Shown here: positions 13,788-19,267 of the stretch, one piece after another
Position numbering within the stretch: position 1 is the stretch's first letter
Layout of the letters: every line of letters starts with the position of its first letter
Assembly (NCBI RefSeq): GCF_024391045.1
Contig: NZ_JANFCZ010000014.1
Coordinates: 1 to 64,000, forward strand
Reading direction: 5' to 3'
Source: Pseudarthrobacter sulfonivorans
Lineage (GTDB): Bacteria > Actinomycetota > Actinomycetes > Actinomycetales > Micrococcaceae
DNA: 64,000 nucleotides
Position numbers and translations under genes: made by a program
Notes under the pieces: model-generated
Databases searched by the model: none
Seen by the model: only the letters and a program-made list of their open reading frames with translations
What the model was told of the DNA's origin: nothing

Positions 13788-13942
13788 GTTCGCAGACTAG
13801 CACCGGCCGGCCTCCTGTGGGGACCCCAACGTTGAGCAAGGTTGCGCAGCCTTACATTGCATGACCTGCGATGTCGTTCTGGTTACCGCATGTGACGTGC
13901 GGCTTTTCTGCCGGGGCGGCGCTGTGCCAGATTCGTCGGGTA

Positions 13943-14027
13943 ACCATCTCGAGCGGCTGAGAGACCTGGCTCCGTGACGCCGCAGCAACCCCCTTCAGTG
14001 GACGGTGCTACTGCCAGGACCGATGGA
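13943..14027 (+). promoter_or_regulatory. SAM riboswitch upstream of metNI-metQ
   Basis: The element runs from ACCATC through CGAGCGGCTGAGAGACCTGG, GCCGCAGCAACC and GGTGCTACTGCCAGGACC to GATGG, with CCATC/GATGG forming P1. It matches S-box (SAM-I type) riboswitches and shares its core nearly base for base with the element at 11993-12159. No clear intrinsic terminator with a T tract follows. A GGGCGGC/GCCGCCC hairpin (14050-14067) and a hairpin that covers the downstream ribosome site (14090-14108) suggest control of translation rather than termination. Confidence 0.88.
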
Positions 14028-14089
14028 GAACCTTAAAGTTCCCGGTCTTGGGCGGCGCCTGCCGCCCGCACGGCCGCGCTGCGGGGTTT

Positions 14090-14108
14090 CCTCGGGTGAG
14101 CCCGGAGG
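14090..14108 (+). promoter_or_regulatory. Hairpin masking the leader ORF ribosome site
   Basis: CCTCGGG (14090-14096) can pair with CCCGGAGG (14101-14108) around TGAG, with one bulged G. The right arm contains GGAGG, the Shine-Dalgarno for the ATG at 14114. Folding would block initiation, so this is a candidate expression platform for the riboswitch just upstream. Confidence 0.5.
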
Positions 14109-14113
14109 AATTC

Positions 14114-14167
14114 ATGAACGCACAGACAGGCAGCCGCGGGGCAGCCCCAGCAGGTGATCACCTGTGA
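14114..14167 (+). CDS. 17-codon leader ORF coupled to metN
   Basis: An ATG at 14114 with a strong GGAGG 5 bases upstream opens a 17-codon frame (MNAQTGSRGAAPAGDHL). It stops at 14165-14167, and its stop overlaps the GTG start of metN as GTGA. metN has no Shine-Dalgarno of its own at a normal distance, so ribosomes finishing this peptide probably restart on metN. The peptide has no methionine or cysteine run, so a classical attenuator by codon stalling is not suggested. It may simply relay riboswitch control to metN. Confidence 0.6.
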   Translation: MNAQTGSRGAAPAGDHL

Positions 14168-14964
14168 TCGAAATCCAGAACGTCACCACCTCGTTCGATT
14201 CGCCCACCGGCCGGTTCACAGCCGTTGACGATGTCAGCCTGCACATTGAACGCGGCACCATCCAGGGCATCATCGGGTTCTCCGGTGCCGGTAAATCCAC
14301 CCTGCTTCGCAACATCAACCTCCTGGAGCGGCCCACGGCCGGCCGGGTCCTGGTGGATGGTGTGGATCTCCTGACGCTGTCCGATGCGGAGCTGCGCACC
14401 AAGCGCCACGACATCGGGATGATCTTCCAGCACTTCAACCTGCTCAACAACCTCACGGCGCAGGAGAACGTTGAGCTTTCGCTGAAGTTCGCGGGCGTGG
14501 GGAAGGCGGAGCGCCGCCGTCGTGCTGCTGAAACCCTGGAAATCGTGGACCTCAGTGATAAAGCCGGCACGTACCCTGCCAAGCTCTCCGGCGGCCAGAA
14601 GCAGCGGGTGGCCATCGCCAGGGCGCTTGCCACCGAACCCAAGGTCCTGCTCTGCGACGAGCCGACGTCGGCAGTCGACCCCCGCACAACAGCCTCGGTC
14701 CTGCAGTACCTGGCCGACGTCAATGCCGAATTCGGCATCACCATTGTGGTGGTCACCCACGAAATGAACGTCATCAAGGCCATTGCCGACAACGTTGCCG
14801 TGATGGAGGAGGGACGGGTGGTGGAGCAATTCGACCTGACCGAGCTGCAACGGCCCGGCTTCCACCCGGCCACACAGAGCGGCCGGTACCTCATCTCCGA
14901 CGACATCCAGCTGGACCGTTCCGCCCACGCGAAAGCCGTCACGGAAGGCCTGCTCAATGTTTGA
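14164..14964 (+). CDS. metN: Methionine ABC transporter ATP-binding protein
   Basis: This 266-residue ATPase of the MetNIQ importer has Walker A at GFSGAGKS (38-45), the Q-loop in IGMIFQHFNLL, the signature LSGGQKQR, Walker B in VLLCDEPTSAVDP, and the switch H in VVTHEMN. Family-typical opening residues (IEIQNVT) support the GTG at 14164, which is coupled to the leader ORF by a GTGA overlap. At 266 residues it lacks the C-terminal NIL regulatory domain of about 70-80 residues found in E. coli MetN, so substrate trans-inhibition is probably absent. It overlaps metI by 8 bases. Expression is under the SAM riboswitch. Confidence 0.93.
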   Translation: MIEIQNVTTSFDSPTGRFTAVDDVSLHIERGTIQGIIGFSGAGKSTLLRNINLLERPTAGRVLVDGVDLLTLSDAELRTKRHDIGMIFQHFNLLNNLTAQENVELSLKFAGVGKAERRRRAAETLEIVDLSDKAGTYPAKLSGGQKQRVAIARALATEPKVLLCDEPTSAVDPRTTASVLQYLADVNAEFGITIVVVTHEMNVIKAIADNVAVMEEGRVVEQFDLTELQRPGFHPATQSGRYLISDDIQLDRSAHAKAVTEGLLNV

Positions 14965-15622
14965 CCGCATCCTCGAAGTCCTGCCCGAGATCGGCGTGGC
15001 CATGGGGCAGACCCTCACCATGCTGCTCGTGGCCATCCCGCTGGCGGTGCTCCTCGGCACCCCGCTGGGTGTCCTGCTCTACACGATCGGCCCCAACGGA
15101 CTCAAACACCGGCCGAAGCTGCACCGCGTCCTGGACGGGCTGGTCAACCTGGTCCGGTCTTTTCCGTTCCTGATCCTCCTGATCGCCATCATCCCGGTCA
15201 CCCGGTTCATTGTGGGCACCACCATCGGCACGGCCGCTGTGATTGTCCCGCTCACCATCAACGCCATCCCCTACTTCGCCCGCTTTGTGGAGCAGAATCT
15301 CAGCCAGCTCGGCAGCGGTGTAGTGGAGGCGGCACGGTCCATGGGGGCAAGCCGGCGCCAGATCGTCCGGGATGTCCTGATCGTGGAGGCCAAGCCGGGG
15401 CTGGTCAGTTCCATCACCATCATGACCGTCAGCTTCATCTCGTACTCCGCCATGGCCGGCCTGGTGGGCGGCGGCGGAATCGGCGACTTCGCCATCCGTT
15501 ACGGCTACTACCGCTACGAAACCCCGCTGATGATCACCGCCATTGTGCTGATGATCCTGCTGGTCACCATCGTCCAGCTGGGCGGCTCGTACCTCGCGCG
15601 GCGCCTCGACAAGCGCCTCTAA
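14957..15622 (+). CDS. metI: Methionine ABC transporter permease
   Basis: MetI forms the membrane channel of the D/L-methionine importer. The 221-residue protein has about five membrane helices and the BPD_transp signature region EAARSMGASRRQIVRDVLI (about residues 130-148), where the coupling helix meets MetN. The motif NLVRSFPFLILLIAIIP is typical of MetI. It overlaps metN by 8 bases and is followed 37 bases later by the flavin monooxygenase gene, which separates it from metQ. This interruption of metNI and metQ by an oxygenase gene suggests that transport and desulfurisation are expressed together. Confidence 0.93.
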   Translation: MFDRILEVLPEIGVAMGQTLTMLLVAIPLAVLLGTPLGVLLYTIGPNGLKHRPKLHRVLDGLVNLVRSFPFLILLIAIIPVTRFIVGTTIGTAAVIVPLTINAIPYFARFVEQNLSQLGSGVVEAARSMGASRRQIVRDVLIVEAKPGLVSSITIMTVSFISYSAMAGLVGGGGIGDFAIRYGYYRYETPLMITAIVLMILLVTIVQLGGSYLARRLDKRL

Positions 15623-15659: not shown

Positions 15660-17096
15660 ATGACTTCAACACCCAGTACCCGCTTCAACGGCCCCCGTCC
15701 CCGCCTGCTGATCAGCGCCTTCGTGATGAACACCACCAGCCACATCATGGGCGGCCAGTGGCGGCGCCCCGAGGCGCAGCAGCACCAGTTCAACGAACTC
15801 GCGCTGTGGACGGACCTGGCCCGCCAGCTCGAAGACGCCAAGTTTGACGCGATCTTTTTCGCCGACGTCGTAGGGCTCTACGGCGATTACGACGGCGGGT
15901 GGGCGTCGCTGCTGAAAAAGGGCCTGCAGGTGCCGTCCAACGACCCCCTGATCCTGCTGTCCGCGCTCGCGGTGGGAACGAAGGACATCGGACTGGCCGC
16001 CACGTCGTCGGTGATCCAGAGCCACCCCTTCCAGTTCGCCCGGCAGATGTCCACCCTGGACCACCTCAGCAACGGCCGCGTGGCCTGGAACATCGTCACC
16101 AGCGTGCTGGAAAACGCGCACCGGAACTTCAACGCCACCGAGCTGACGAAGCACGACGAACGGTACGACTGGGCCGACGAATACGTCGAGGCGGCCTACA
16201 AGCTGTGGGAAGGCTCGTGGGAGGACGACGCCCTGCTCCTGGACAAGGAAAACGGCGTCCATGCCGACCCGGAAAAGGTCAGCAAGATCTACCACCGCGG
16301 GCCCCGGTACTCCATTGACGGGCCGCACCTTTCAGCGCCGTCGCAGCAGCGCACGCCGGTGCTCTTCCAGGCCGGCAGCTCCGGGCGCGGCCAGCAGTTC
16401 TGCGCTGCCAACGCGGAGGCCACCTTCACGTTGGCGCCGAACACGGACGTCGCCGCGAAGTACACGGCAGCCGTCCGCGAACAGGCAGCCGCCGCAGGGC
16501 GCCACCCGGATGACGTGAAGTTCCTCCAGGGCATGCATTTCGTGGTTGGCGGTACCGAAGCGGAGGCTAACCGCAAGGCGGCCGAGCTGGAGGAGACTCT
16601 GGACATTGAAGCCCTGCTGGCCCACGTGGGCGGCGGCTTCGGCGTCGATCTCGGCGGACTCCCGCTGGACACCCCGCTCGGCGACCTCGCCACCGAAGGC
16701 AGCCAGGGCCATCTTGAGGCCATCCGTGCTTCGGTTCGCGGCGGCAACCCCACGCTCCGCGATATTGCCCTGTACCGCAGCCGCGCCAACCGGGTGGTGG
16801 GCACGCCCGAACAGATCGCCAACCGCATCGAGGAGTGGCAGGACGCCGGCATCGACGGCATCAACATCATCAACCAGACCATTCCGGGTTCATACACGGA
16901 CTTCATCGAGGGCGTGCTCCCCGAACTGCGCAGCCGCGGCCTCGCCCAGACCGGGTACACGGCGGGAACCCTGCGCGAAAAGCTCTTCGGCGCAGGGCCG
17001 CGCCTCAACGACAGGCACCCCGCCGCAGCATTCCGCGGCGCCTTCACCGAATTCTCCGCAGCCGCGGAAAACAAGCCAGCCACCATCAGCGTTTAG
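15660..17096 (+). CDS. DszA/NtaA/SnaA-type flavin monooxygenase
   Basis: This 478-residue luciferase-like monooxygenase belongs to the NtaA/SnaA/DszA group. Its markers are LLISAFVMNTTSHIMGGQWRRP at the N-terminus, DAIFFADVVGLYGDY, HPFQFARQMSTLDHLSNGRVAWNIVTS, the HDERYDWADEY region, and PVLFQAGSSGRG. Group members use reduced FMN from a partner reductase to oxidise organosulfur or aminopolyacid substrates. Its position between metI and metQ, under a SAM riboswitch, points to cleavage of a methionine-like or sulfonyl compound imported by the transporter. The exact substrate cannot be read from sequence. The ATG at 15660 follows a GGAG about 9 bases upstream. Confidence 0.87.
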   Translation: MTSTPSTRFNGPRPRLLISAFVMNTTSHIMGGQWRRPEAQQHQFNELALWTDLARQLEDAKFDAIFFADVVGLYGDYDGGWASLLKKGLQVPSNDPLILLSALAVGTKDIGLAATSSVIQSHPFQFARQMSTLDHLSNGRVAWNIVTSVLENAHRNFNATELTKHDERYDWADEYVEAAYKLWEGSWEDDALLLDKENGVHADPEKVSKIYHRGPRYSIDGPHLSAPSQQRTPVLFQAGSSGRGQQFCAANAEATFTLAPNTDVAAKYTAAVREQAAAAGRHPDDVKFLQGMHFVVGGTEAEANRKAAELEETLDIEALLAHVGGGFGVDLGGLPLDTPLGDLATEGSQGHLEAIRASVRGGNPTLRDIALYRSRANRVVGTPEQIANRIEEWQDAGIDGINIINQTIPGSYTDFIEGVLPELRSRGLAQTGYTAGTLREKLFGAGPRLNDRHPAAAFRGAFTEFSAAAENKPATISV

Positions 17097-17122
17097 CCCG
17101 CACTTTTCAAAGGACCACATCC

Positions 17123-17995
17123 ATGCAGCGTAGAAGTTTCCTCAAGTATGCCCTCGCCGGTGCCGGCGCAGTTTCCGTTGCGGCGCTGACCGGCTGCGGC
17201 CTCGTCAATCCCGGCGGCGCCAGCGCGGCCGGCGGCGGCAAGACCATCAAGATCATCGTCACGGAATCCGCTCCGTACCAGGAACCCACCAAGATTGCCC
17301 AGAAACTGCTTGAAGCCAAGGGCTGGACCCTGGAACCCACCTACGTCACGGACATCATCCAGCCGAACCTGGCCGTGGCCAACGGTGAATTCGACGCCAA
17401 CTTCTTCCAGCACAACGCGTACCTGAGGCAGTTCAACCAGGACAAGAACCTGGAGAACGTGGGGCTTTTCTACGTGTACAGCGCGCCGGGCGGCATCTGG
17501 TCCGATAAGTACAAGTCCCTTGCCGAACTCCCGGACGGTGCAAAGATCGGCATCCCCGTGGATCCGGCCAACAACGGCCGTGCACTGTTCATGCTGCGCG
17601 ACGCCGGCCTGCTGGAACTCTCGGACGCCACGGTGATCCACACGTCGCAGAAGAACATCACGGCCAACCCGAAGAAGCTGCAGTTCGTCGAGGTGGACCA
17701 GCAGTCCCTCGCCAAGACGCTGCCGGATGTTGATGCCGGCTTCCTCGTGGCCCGGATGGCGGCAGACGCCAAGCACACCAAGGCGGACGCACTGGCCTTC
17801 GAATCGGACGCGGACCAGATTCCGTTCCGGATTGTGGTGGCCGGACGGAAGGACTTTGCCGGCTCGGAAAAGGCCAGCGCGCTCAAGGAAGCTTTCCAGT
17901 CCCCGGAGGTCAAGGCCTGGTTCGAGAGCTACCAGAACGGCATCCTGCCTACGCCGTGGGACCAGGACCCGGCCACCGACATCACCAAGCTCTAG
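17123..17995 (+). CDS. metQ: Methionine ABC transporter substrate-binding lipoprotein
   Basis: This 290-residue NlpA/MetQ-family binding protein delivers methionine or a related compound to MetNI. The N-terminus carries RRSFLK followed by a hydrophobic helix and a lipobox ALTGC with the lipidated C25. The RR pair makes Tat export possible. Mature-domain signatures include KIIVTESAPYQEP, EPTYVTDIIQPNLAVANGEFDANFFQHNAYL, and IGIPVDPANNGRALFMLRDAGLL. I chose the ATG at 17123, with AAAGGA upstream at about 9 bases; longer in-frame starts would erase the signal peptide. It belongs to the riboswitch operon. Confidence 0.92.
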   Translation: MQRRSFLKYALAGAGAVSVAALTGCGLVNPGGASAAGGGKTIKIIVTESAPYQEPTKIAQKLLEAKGWTLEPTYVTDIIQPNLAVANGEFDANFFQHNAYLRQFNQDKNLENVGLFYVYSAPGGIWSDKYKSLAELPDGAKIGIPVDPANNGRALFMLRDAGLLELSDATVIHTSQKNITANPKKLQFVEVDQQSLAKTLPDVDAGFLVARMAADAKHTKADALAFESDADQIPFRIVVAGRKDFAGSEKASALKEAFQSPEVKAWFESYQNGILPTPWDQDPATDITKL

Positions 17996-18031: not shown

Positions 18032-19267
18032 ATGACCTACGCAGCAGGCACCACAGCGCCGGCGCAGGAATCGGCCGAGGCCAAGTACCAGGGGCTGGCC
18101 GAGCGGTTTCGGCCGGTCTTTGCCCGCATAGCCGAGGGCTCACTGGCCCGTGAGCAGGACAGGGTCCTGCCGTTCGAGCCGGTCCGCTGGCTCAACGAGG
18201 CAGGCTTCGGGCGGCTGCGCGTGCCCGTGGAGCATGGCGGTGACGGCATTGGGTTCGAACCGTTCTTCCGGCTCCTGGTTGAACTGGCCGAGGCTGATTC
18301 GTCCGTGGCCCACCTGTACCGCTCCCACTTCGCCTTCGTGGAGACAGTGGGCCTGGAACCCGAGGAATTCCAGAACCGTTGGTATCCCAAAGTGGTGGCG
18401 GGCCAGATCTTCGGAAACGCCGCCACGGAACGCTCCGGAAACGTCCTCGGCGCCACCGGCACCACGCTCACCAGGAACGGTGAGAACTGGCTGCTCAACG
18501 GCAAAAAGTTCTACACGACGGGCACCATCTTCGCCGAGTGGATCGCAGTGACGGCAAGCACCGAGGGCGTCGAGGGCCGGCAGTACGCGGTGGTCAGCAC
18601 CACCCAGCCGGGCGTGGAGATCCTCGACGACTGGGACGGCTTCGGCCAGCAGCTCACGGGGACCGGCACCACCATCTTCCGCGACGCCGCCGTGCCGCAG
18701 GCCAACATCATTCAGCGCTCGGTGTCCACCACCCACGAGCCGGCGTTCTTCCAGCTGGTCCTGCTCGCCGTCCTCGCAGGGATCGGGCGGGCGGCGCTGG
18801 CCGATGCGCGGGCCTTGGTCCGCGACCGGAAGCGCACGTTCAACACCGGCTCCGGCGAGCTGTTCCGGCACGATCCGCTGATCCTCCAACTGGTCGGACA
18901 CCTTTCCGCCAAGGTGTTCGCCGCCGAGTCCGTGGTACTTGCCGCCGCGCGGGAGCTGGACGCCGCGGCAGACCAGGCACTGGACCTCACCCCGGAGCAG
19001 CGGTACACGCGGGGCGAAGTGGCCGTGGAAAAGGCGCAGCTGCTGGTGCCGGAACTGGTGCAGTCGGCTGCCCAGCAGCTCTTCGACACCACCGGGGCCT
19101 CGTCCACATCCAAGTCGAAGTCGCTGGACCGGCACTGGCGGAATGCCCGCACCGTGTCCACCCACAACCCGGCGGTGTTCAAGGCCCGGATCGTGGGAGA
19201 CCACGAGGTCAACGGCACCGTTCCCGAAGGCCTGCACAGCATCGGCGATGCACGCGCGGGAGCTTAG
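18032..19267 (+). CDS. Acyl-CoA dehydrogenase-fold flavoprotein, SfnB/DszC-like
   Basis: This 411-residue protein has the three-domain acyl-CoA dehydrogenase fold. An N-terminal helical region (LRVPVEHGGDGIGFEPFFRLL) is followed by the beta domain (FGNAATERSGNVLGATGT, LLNGKKFYTTG) and a helical C-terminus with DTTGASSTSKSKSLDRHWRNARTVSTHNP. The C-terminal DRHWRNARTxSxHNP motif is typical of the SfnB/DszC branch, which are flavin-dependent sulfur-compound oxygenases rather than fatty-acid dehydrogenases. GAGGGGG sits 7 bases before the ATG. As the last gene of the riboswitch operon, it probably oxidises an organosulfur substrate together with the DszA-type enzyme. Confidence 0.85.
   Translation: MTYAAGTTAPAQESAEAKYQGLAERFRPVFARIAEGSLAREQDRVLPFEPVRWLNEAGFGRLRVPVEHGGDGIGFEPFFRLLVELAEADSSVAHLYRSHFAFVETVGLEPEEFQNRWYPKVVAGQIFGNAATERSGNVLGATGTTLTRNGENWLLNGKKFYTTGTIFAEWIAVTASTEGVEGRQYAVVSTTQPGVEILDDWDGFGQQLTGTGTTIFRDAAVPQANIIQRSVSTTHEPAFFQLVLLAVLAGIGRAALADARALVRDRKRTFNTGSGELFRHDPLILQLVGHLSAKVFAAESVVLAAARELDAAADQALDLTPEQRYTRGEVAVEKAQLLVPELVQSAAQQLFDTTGASSTSKSKSLDRHWRNARTVSTHNPAVFKARIVGDHEVNGTVPEGLHSIGDARAGA

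Follow-up and report, generated by a model that had tools for sequence, protein, structure and literature searches.

A SAM-I riboswitch in Pseudarthrobacter sulfonivorans is predicted to act on the translation of metN through a 17-codon relay open reading frame (ORF), a reading that we consider probable. The window, meaning the whole stretch of 64,000 nucleotides analysed here, comprises positions 1–64,000 of the forward strand of contig NZ_JANFCZ010000014.1 (assembly GCF_024391045.1). The relay ORF lies behind the riboswitch aptamer, is preceded by a Shine-Dalgarno (SD) sequence and ends on the metN start codon; its frame and its stop-start overlap are kept among relatives, its peptide is not conserved, and the same layout recurs at metF in a further two families of its order. 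That SAM operates the switch, that the leader is translated and that ribosomes re-initiate at metN are the steps that we infer.

The metN locus and its leader ORF

All features described in this section lie on the + strand. The aptamer (13941–14029) matched the RF00162 covariance model in cmscan with 58.3 bits, against a gathering threshold of 44.4, and was the single match in the whole genome at E ≤ 0.001. By this score it is assigned to the SAM-I (S-box) class, and a response to SAM is predicted. Two terminator-like sites were observed immediately upstream of the aptamer (13854–13902), and no intrinsic terminator was found between the aptamer and the leader ORF. A G+C-rich hairpin predicted by folding in that interval (GGGCGGC-GCCT-GCCGCCC, 14050–14067) has no trailing U-run and was absent from the terminator-like sites detected.

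The 17-codon leader ORF, MNAQTGSRGAAPAGDHL, starts at an ATG at 14114 and stops at a TGA at 14165–14167, so that it overlaps the GTG of metN (14164–14964) in the sequence GTGA. Its SD, GGAGG (14104–14108), lies in a putative sequestrator hairpin, TTTCCTCGGG-TGAG-CCCGGAGGAA (14087–14110), which was obtained as a local fold, would mask the SD and has arms that are kept in the clade described below. Upstream, the 3' strand of P1 with its extension, GATGGAGAACC (14022–14032), is a proposed anti-sequestrator, with GGTTTCC at 14085–14091 as its candidate partner. The preliminary description of this DNA, made from the letters alone, had placed a 17-codon ORF with a GGAGG and a GTGA overlap between a SAM riboswitch and metN, and had noted that the GGAGG could be paired in a hairpin just past the riboswitch; both statements hold.

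The product of metN is an ABC ATPase (Pfam ABC_tran) whose top NCBIfam match, MetN, is below the cut-off. It is followed by the permease gene metI (14957–15622; top NCBIfam match MetI, also below the cut-off), the start of which lies within the 3' end of metN (14957–14964), and translational coupling may therefore extend down the operon. Further downstream are genes for an NtaA/DmoA family FMN-dependent monooxygenase (15660–17096; TIGR03860, 500 bits, above the cut-off), a MetQ/NlpA-like lipoprotein (17120–17995; Pfam Lipoprotein_9, with NCBIfam matches below the cut-off) and an SfnB-like sulfur acquisition oxidoreductase (18032–19267; top match TIGR04022, below the cut-off). Judging from these matches, the operon from metN to the SfnB-like gene is probably a gene set for the uptake of methionine or organosulfur compounds.

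Conservation of the leader within the genus

Using the metN DNA as query (E ≤ 1e-60), we searched 206 genomes of the genus and found metN of the window type in 10, that of the window included. The sequence words of the aptamer, the SD and the ATG of the leader were present in all ten, and nine of them had a leader of exactly 17 codons with the GTGA overlap. Conservation of the start and of the reading frame had been named in advance as the point on which the idea of a leader ORF would fall, and in these nine genomes both are conserved. The tenth genome, a MAG (L114, also L053 and L014), has a leader of 49 nt, one base short, with a shifted frame; its metN was matched as two overlapping pieces and looks broken, which suggests a sequence error.

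The clade members carry eight distinct, diverged leader sequences. Among these, the leader ATG lies 92 to 98 nt from P1 (GATGGA), while the metN GTG follows the leader ATG at 50 nt in every case. Reading frame 0 was open in all eight; one of the other two frames was stopped at once and the other was stopped in some leaders only. An open frame of 17 codons is weak evidence at high G+C, so the case rests on the conserved length, overlap and frame. With start, SD, length and overlap fixed in eight diverged leaders and the P1 distance variable, the pattern points to more than chance.

Conservation does not extend to the peptide. Summed over the 28 pairs of distinct leaders (codons 2–16), differences at the three codon positions numbered 166/182/213, compared with 87/78/196 for codons 2–18 of metN over 28 pairs, which argues against strong constraint on the leader peptide. 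The first two amino acids, MN, were invariant among the eight, and the clade leaders contained no stretch of consecutive Met or Cys codons. We considered a peptide-dependent attenuator and rejected it, there being neither a conserved peptide nor regulatory codons in these leaders. Because its peptide is not conserved, the ORF looks like a conduit.

Layouts at other metN loci of the family

A search of 395 genomes of the family gave a match at 1e-30 in 132. From the family and genus searches together, we read the upstream regions of 71 metN loci (10 of the clade and 61 others) and rescanned them for SD-preceded ORFs ending on the metN start, with SD words of 4 nt. Such a short overlapping ORF was present in 9/10 clade loci versus 1/61 other loci, and a GTG start of metN in 10/10 versus 1/61. 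Start codons at the aligned position of the 61 other loci were ATG in 53, TTG in three and GTG in one, with none in the remaining four. The suggestion that the same ORF should be sought upstream of metN in other members of the family was thus borne out within the genus clade (9/10) and hardly beyond it (1/61).

The single overlapping ORF outside the clade, at L174, has 13 codons, begins with GTG and ends in ATGA on metN. Its near kin have no overlapping ORF, and AAGGAG stands directly before its metN; an overlap at a gene with its own SD indicates that such overlaps can arise by chance. Another locus (L122, also L055, Arthrobacter sp. 11W110_air) belongs to the four that have no start codon where the alignment would place it; here the ATG next to the SD shares the metN frame and adds an N-terminal extension. 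At nearly all of the other family loci that were read, it is metN itself that the SD precedes or, in L122, the extended, in-frame metN; at many of them the SD lies in or beside P1, and the metN genes of Paeniglutamicibacter and Zafaria have a comparable SD hairpin immediately before them. Direct, fused and overlapping-leader layouts of metN thus coexist within one family.

A second ribosome site before metN

It had been claimed that no ribosome site precedes the metN GTG and that only coupling to the leader gives ribosomes access to metN. Neither claim is supported. The sequence AGGTGATC (14152–14159), inside the leader, is SD-like: all 8 nt of it can pair with GGATCACCTCCTTTCT, a sequence that is present once in the window genome and that we take to be the common 3' end of actinobacterial 16S rRNA, and it ends 4 nt before the GTG. 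Read by eye, AGGTG is kept before metN in 8/10 clade genomes, the window included; the exceptions are L117, with GGTGA, and L119, in which no exact SD word was found. What stands of the earlier proposal, by anatomy and conservation, is a short ORF, served by the riboswitch-proximal SD, that leads over into metN; the exclusiveness of the coupling does not, because metN has an SD-like site of its own.

Direct initiation, at least in part, is accordingly possible, and the most serious alternative to the relay is that metN is initiated directly from AGGTGATC, with leader translation serving to open structure or to shield the mRNA from Rho and coupling being partial or indirect. The match to the 16S tail and its retention favour this alternative, as do the duplex energies, which in 10/10 genomes are at least as good at the metN site as at the leader site, some of the duplexes extending beyond the SD. 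In the window, moreover, AGGTGATC lies inside a palindrome, CAGGTGATCACCTG (14151–14164), and a ribosome on the leader would open the hairpin. Against it, the clade does not conserve a hairpin at the metN SD, so that we rejected this hairpin as a general feature, and L119 keeps the leader overlap intact with no exact SD word, although its duplex energy is not weak. On balance we regard direct initiation as unlikely and the relay as the better account of the locus.

Recurrence of the relay layout at metF and other SAM-I loci

We classified 139 SAM aptamer loci, a subset of the places found (29 taken from the genus-wide search and 110 from that of the order), with leader scans started from the known aptamer coordinates. 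The layout was direct in 85, a leader with overlap in 34 and neither in 20. The 34 leader-overlap loci comprised 18 at metF, seven at metN, eight at a rhodanese-like gene and one other (L277). A stricter scan recovered 6 of the 110 order loci versus 2.5 in resampled leaders, and isolated leader cases may therefore be due to chance; that scan missed most metF cases because their SD is GGAG.

The 18 metF leader cases were confined to two other families of the order, and the metF matches L251 and L263, in other families, had no NTGA leader overlap. The two families were chosen for a dedicated metF search because the pattern was first seen there. With the MetF protein as query, 23/24 and 11/12 of their genomes were matched, giving 42 loci, of which 40 were covered by an RF00162 scan (L333 and L334 were left out). 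An RF00162 aptamer was found just upstream of metF in 32, 18 of them seen before and 14 new. No RF00162 match was found upstream of L325 and L327–L332, and L312 had neither an aptamer match nor, by eye, an overlapping leader.

All 32 aptamer-bearing metF loci (L293–L311, L313–L324 and L326) have a P1-adjacent ORF ending in NTGA on metF. It starts at the first ATG within 14 nt of the aptamer (TTG in L302), and in 32/32 its TGA overlaps a start codon of the metF frame as ATGA or GTGA. The metF frame is broken after 33 codons in L315 and long in the remaining 31. Among these 31 leaders there are ten different lengths between 9 and 22 codons; no two are identical in sequence, and they group into 14 clusters. 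Openness is common in this high G+C sequence (mean 0.82 in shuffled metF leaders), and a leader both open and in frame would be expected at about 0.27 per locus without constraint, versus the 32/32 observed. An SD-like word of at least 4 nt precedes the metF start in 10/31 loci. These layouts indicate that relay ORFs recur behind SAM-I riboswitches in the order. The description of the arrangement as uncommon consequently needs revision, given 32/32 metF layouts in two families and a published relay from a B12 riboswitch through an upstream ORF (PMC11260477). At L319–L324, a SAM-IV aptamer was observed on the opposite strand, about 140–160 nt from the SAM-I aptamer of metF, the two classes standing back to back.

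The rhodanese-like gene was seen with a leader at L205, L212, L222, L246, L276, L259, L262 and L283, where it is preceded by a DUF1737-like small gene or a short overlapping ORF; other loci of this gene are direct or fused. Five of these eight leaders read as DUF1737-like small genes, a likeness tested for L246 alone, and L262 has an apparently decayed DUF1737 frame before the rhodanese-like gene. In a class sample of 70 loci from other orders (L335–L404; 30 loci and 40 of the listed places), 40 were direct, 28 were neither and two were called automatically as leaders. The two calls, L373 and L401, start 91 and 214 nt past the aptamer, and we rejected their frames as spurious. The gene behind the SAM-I aptamer in this sample is, we presume, often threonine synthase-like; at L400, the single locus tested, it encodes a PALP enzyme.

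The conserved frames of metN and metF leaders bear on three further readings. It is improbable that the riboswitch SD serves as a standby site, gathering 30S subunits that start at the metN GTG about 55 nt downstream with the leader untranslated. Initiation over 74 nt has an experimental precedent in the SAM-II metA leader of Sinorhizobium meliloti (PMC9373788), but a standby site leaves unexplained the kept frame and NTGA in 9/10 metN loci and in 32/32 metF loci of many lengths. Slightly less credible still is a leader that encodes a functional or stalling, attenuator-like peptide: the invariant MN and the somewhat largest count of differences at third positions would fit it, whereas most amino acids diverge among the clade leaders, Met and Cys codon runs are absent from them and, by sequence, the leaders of metF split into 14 clusters. 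A vestigial, untranslated spacer open by accident is the least credible of all, since the ease of open frames at high G+C and the overlapping ORF at the unrelated metN locus L174 are set against a start, SD, length and stop-start overlap fixed in 9/10 and metF leaders in frame over many lengths far above expectation.

Folding and a proposed relay mechanism

Folding of single sequences gave no significant signal for the switch when compared with shuffles. Of 200 shuffled sequences, 19 folded as well as the full-length sequence and 52 as well as the local one. The leader SD had a pairing probability of about 0.8 in seven of the eight distinct loci and 0.38 in L119, values matched by 15–83 of 100 shuffles. 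The anti-sequestrator duplex of the window was predicted at -10.5 kcal/mol, with 13/200 shuffles as good, and was weaker in other clade members, where 28–101 of 200 shuffles were as good. When the sequestrator was aligned with those of Paeniglutamicibacter and Zafaria, the arms were conserved and no clear compensatory pairs were found, so we make no claim of covariation for it. Since the folds are not clearly better than those of shuffles, the switch is deduced from the RNA class, and the roles of hairpin 14087–14110 as sequestrator and of GATGGAGAACC as anti-sequestrator are putative.

In the relay that we propose, P1 would form at high SAM and hairpin 14087–14110 would hold the GGAGG. At low SAM the GGAGG would be free, and ribosomes would translate the 17-codon leader, whose amino-acid sequence would be irrelevant. 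They would terminate at the GTGA and re-initiate at the metN GTG, aided by AGGTGATC within the leader, and metI would come next.

We also lean, with less assurance, towards the broader view that, in this order, relay ORFs have evolved separately and repeatedly as adapters linking SAM-I riboswitches to their genes. The aptamer or its expression platform would set the place of the SD, with the start of the gene too far away, and the ribosomes would be carried across by an ORF 8 to 22 codons long that is free in sequence and drifts in length but keeps its frame. Such adapters would serve metN in one clade of the genus, metF throughout the two families examined and the rhodanese gene sporadically.

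Relation to known systems

The closest known system is the B12 riboswitch–uPPE2–ppe2 relay of Mycobacterium tuberculosis, described as a translational OFF switch acting on the SD of a short ORF (PMC11260477). There, uPPE2 overlaps the ppe2 start (AUGA), and reporters showed ppe2 to be reached mainly by termination and re-initiation (PMC11260477). It shares with metN the riboswitch, the SD-bearing short ORF and the stop-start overlap. According to that report ppe2 lacks an obvious SD, whereas metN has an SD-like site, which may not be a defining difference; and the uPPE2 case concerns B12 and one locus (PMC11260477), whereas the putative metN and metF relays concern SAM and are recurrent.

Actinobacterial SAM-I riboswitches that act directly on translation have been described with the ribosome-binding site (RBS) built into the 3' side of P1 (PMC2258182). 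They share the aptamer with the loci studied here, and P1-proximal SDs also occur at metF here and at many of the related metN loci. As described in that work, however, the RBS is taken to be that of the regulated gene, whereas here a relay ORF stands between; and the SD is in P1, whereas that of the window lies in a separate hairpin (PMC2258182). In S. meliloti metA, a SAM riboswitch likewise has an SD that serves, and is needed for, initiation at a distant start, 74 nt downstream (PMC9373788). That riboswitch is of the SAM-II class, however; its AUG2 is in frame with a dispensable AUG1, and the account given of it describes no overlapping leader (PMC9373788). A search of titles and abstracts in the open-licence literature found no report of a SAM-I riboswitch acting via an overlapping leader ORF, which is not proof that none exists.

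Implications

Because a single gene family displays all three layouts (direct, fused and overlapping-leader), the evolution of this control can be tested. If the leaders are translated, a riboswitch can control a disposable mini-cistron that passes ribosomes on, without touching the start of its target gene. In that event the B12–uPPE2 relay would exemplify a broader strategy, and targets of riboswitches that have been recorded as lacking an SD, or as starting at a distance, would have to be re-examined.
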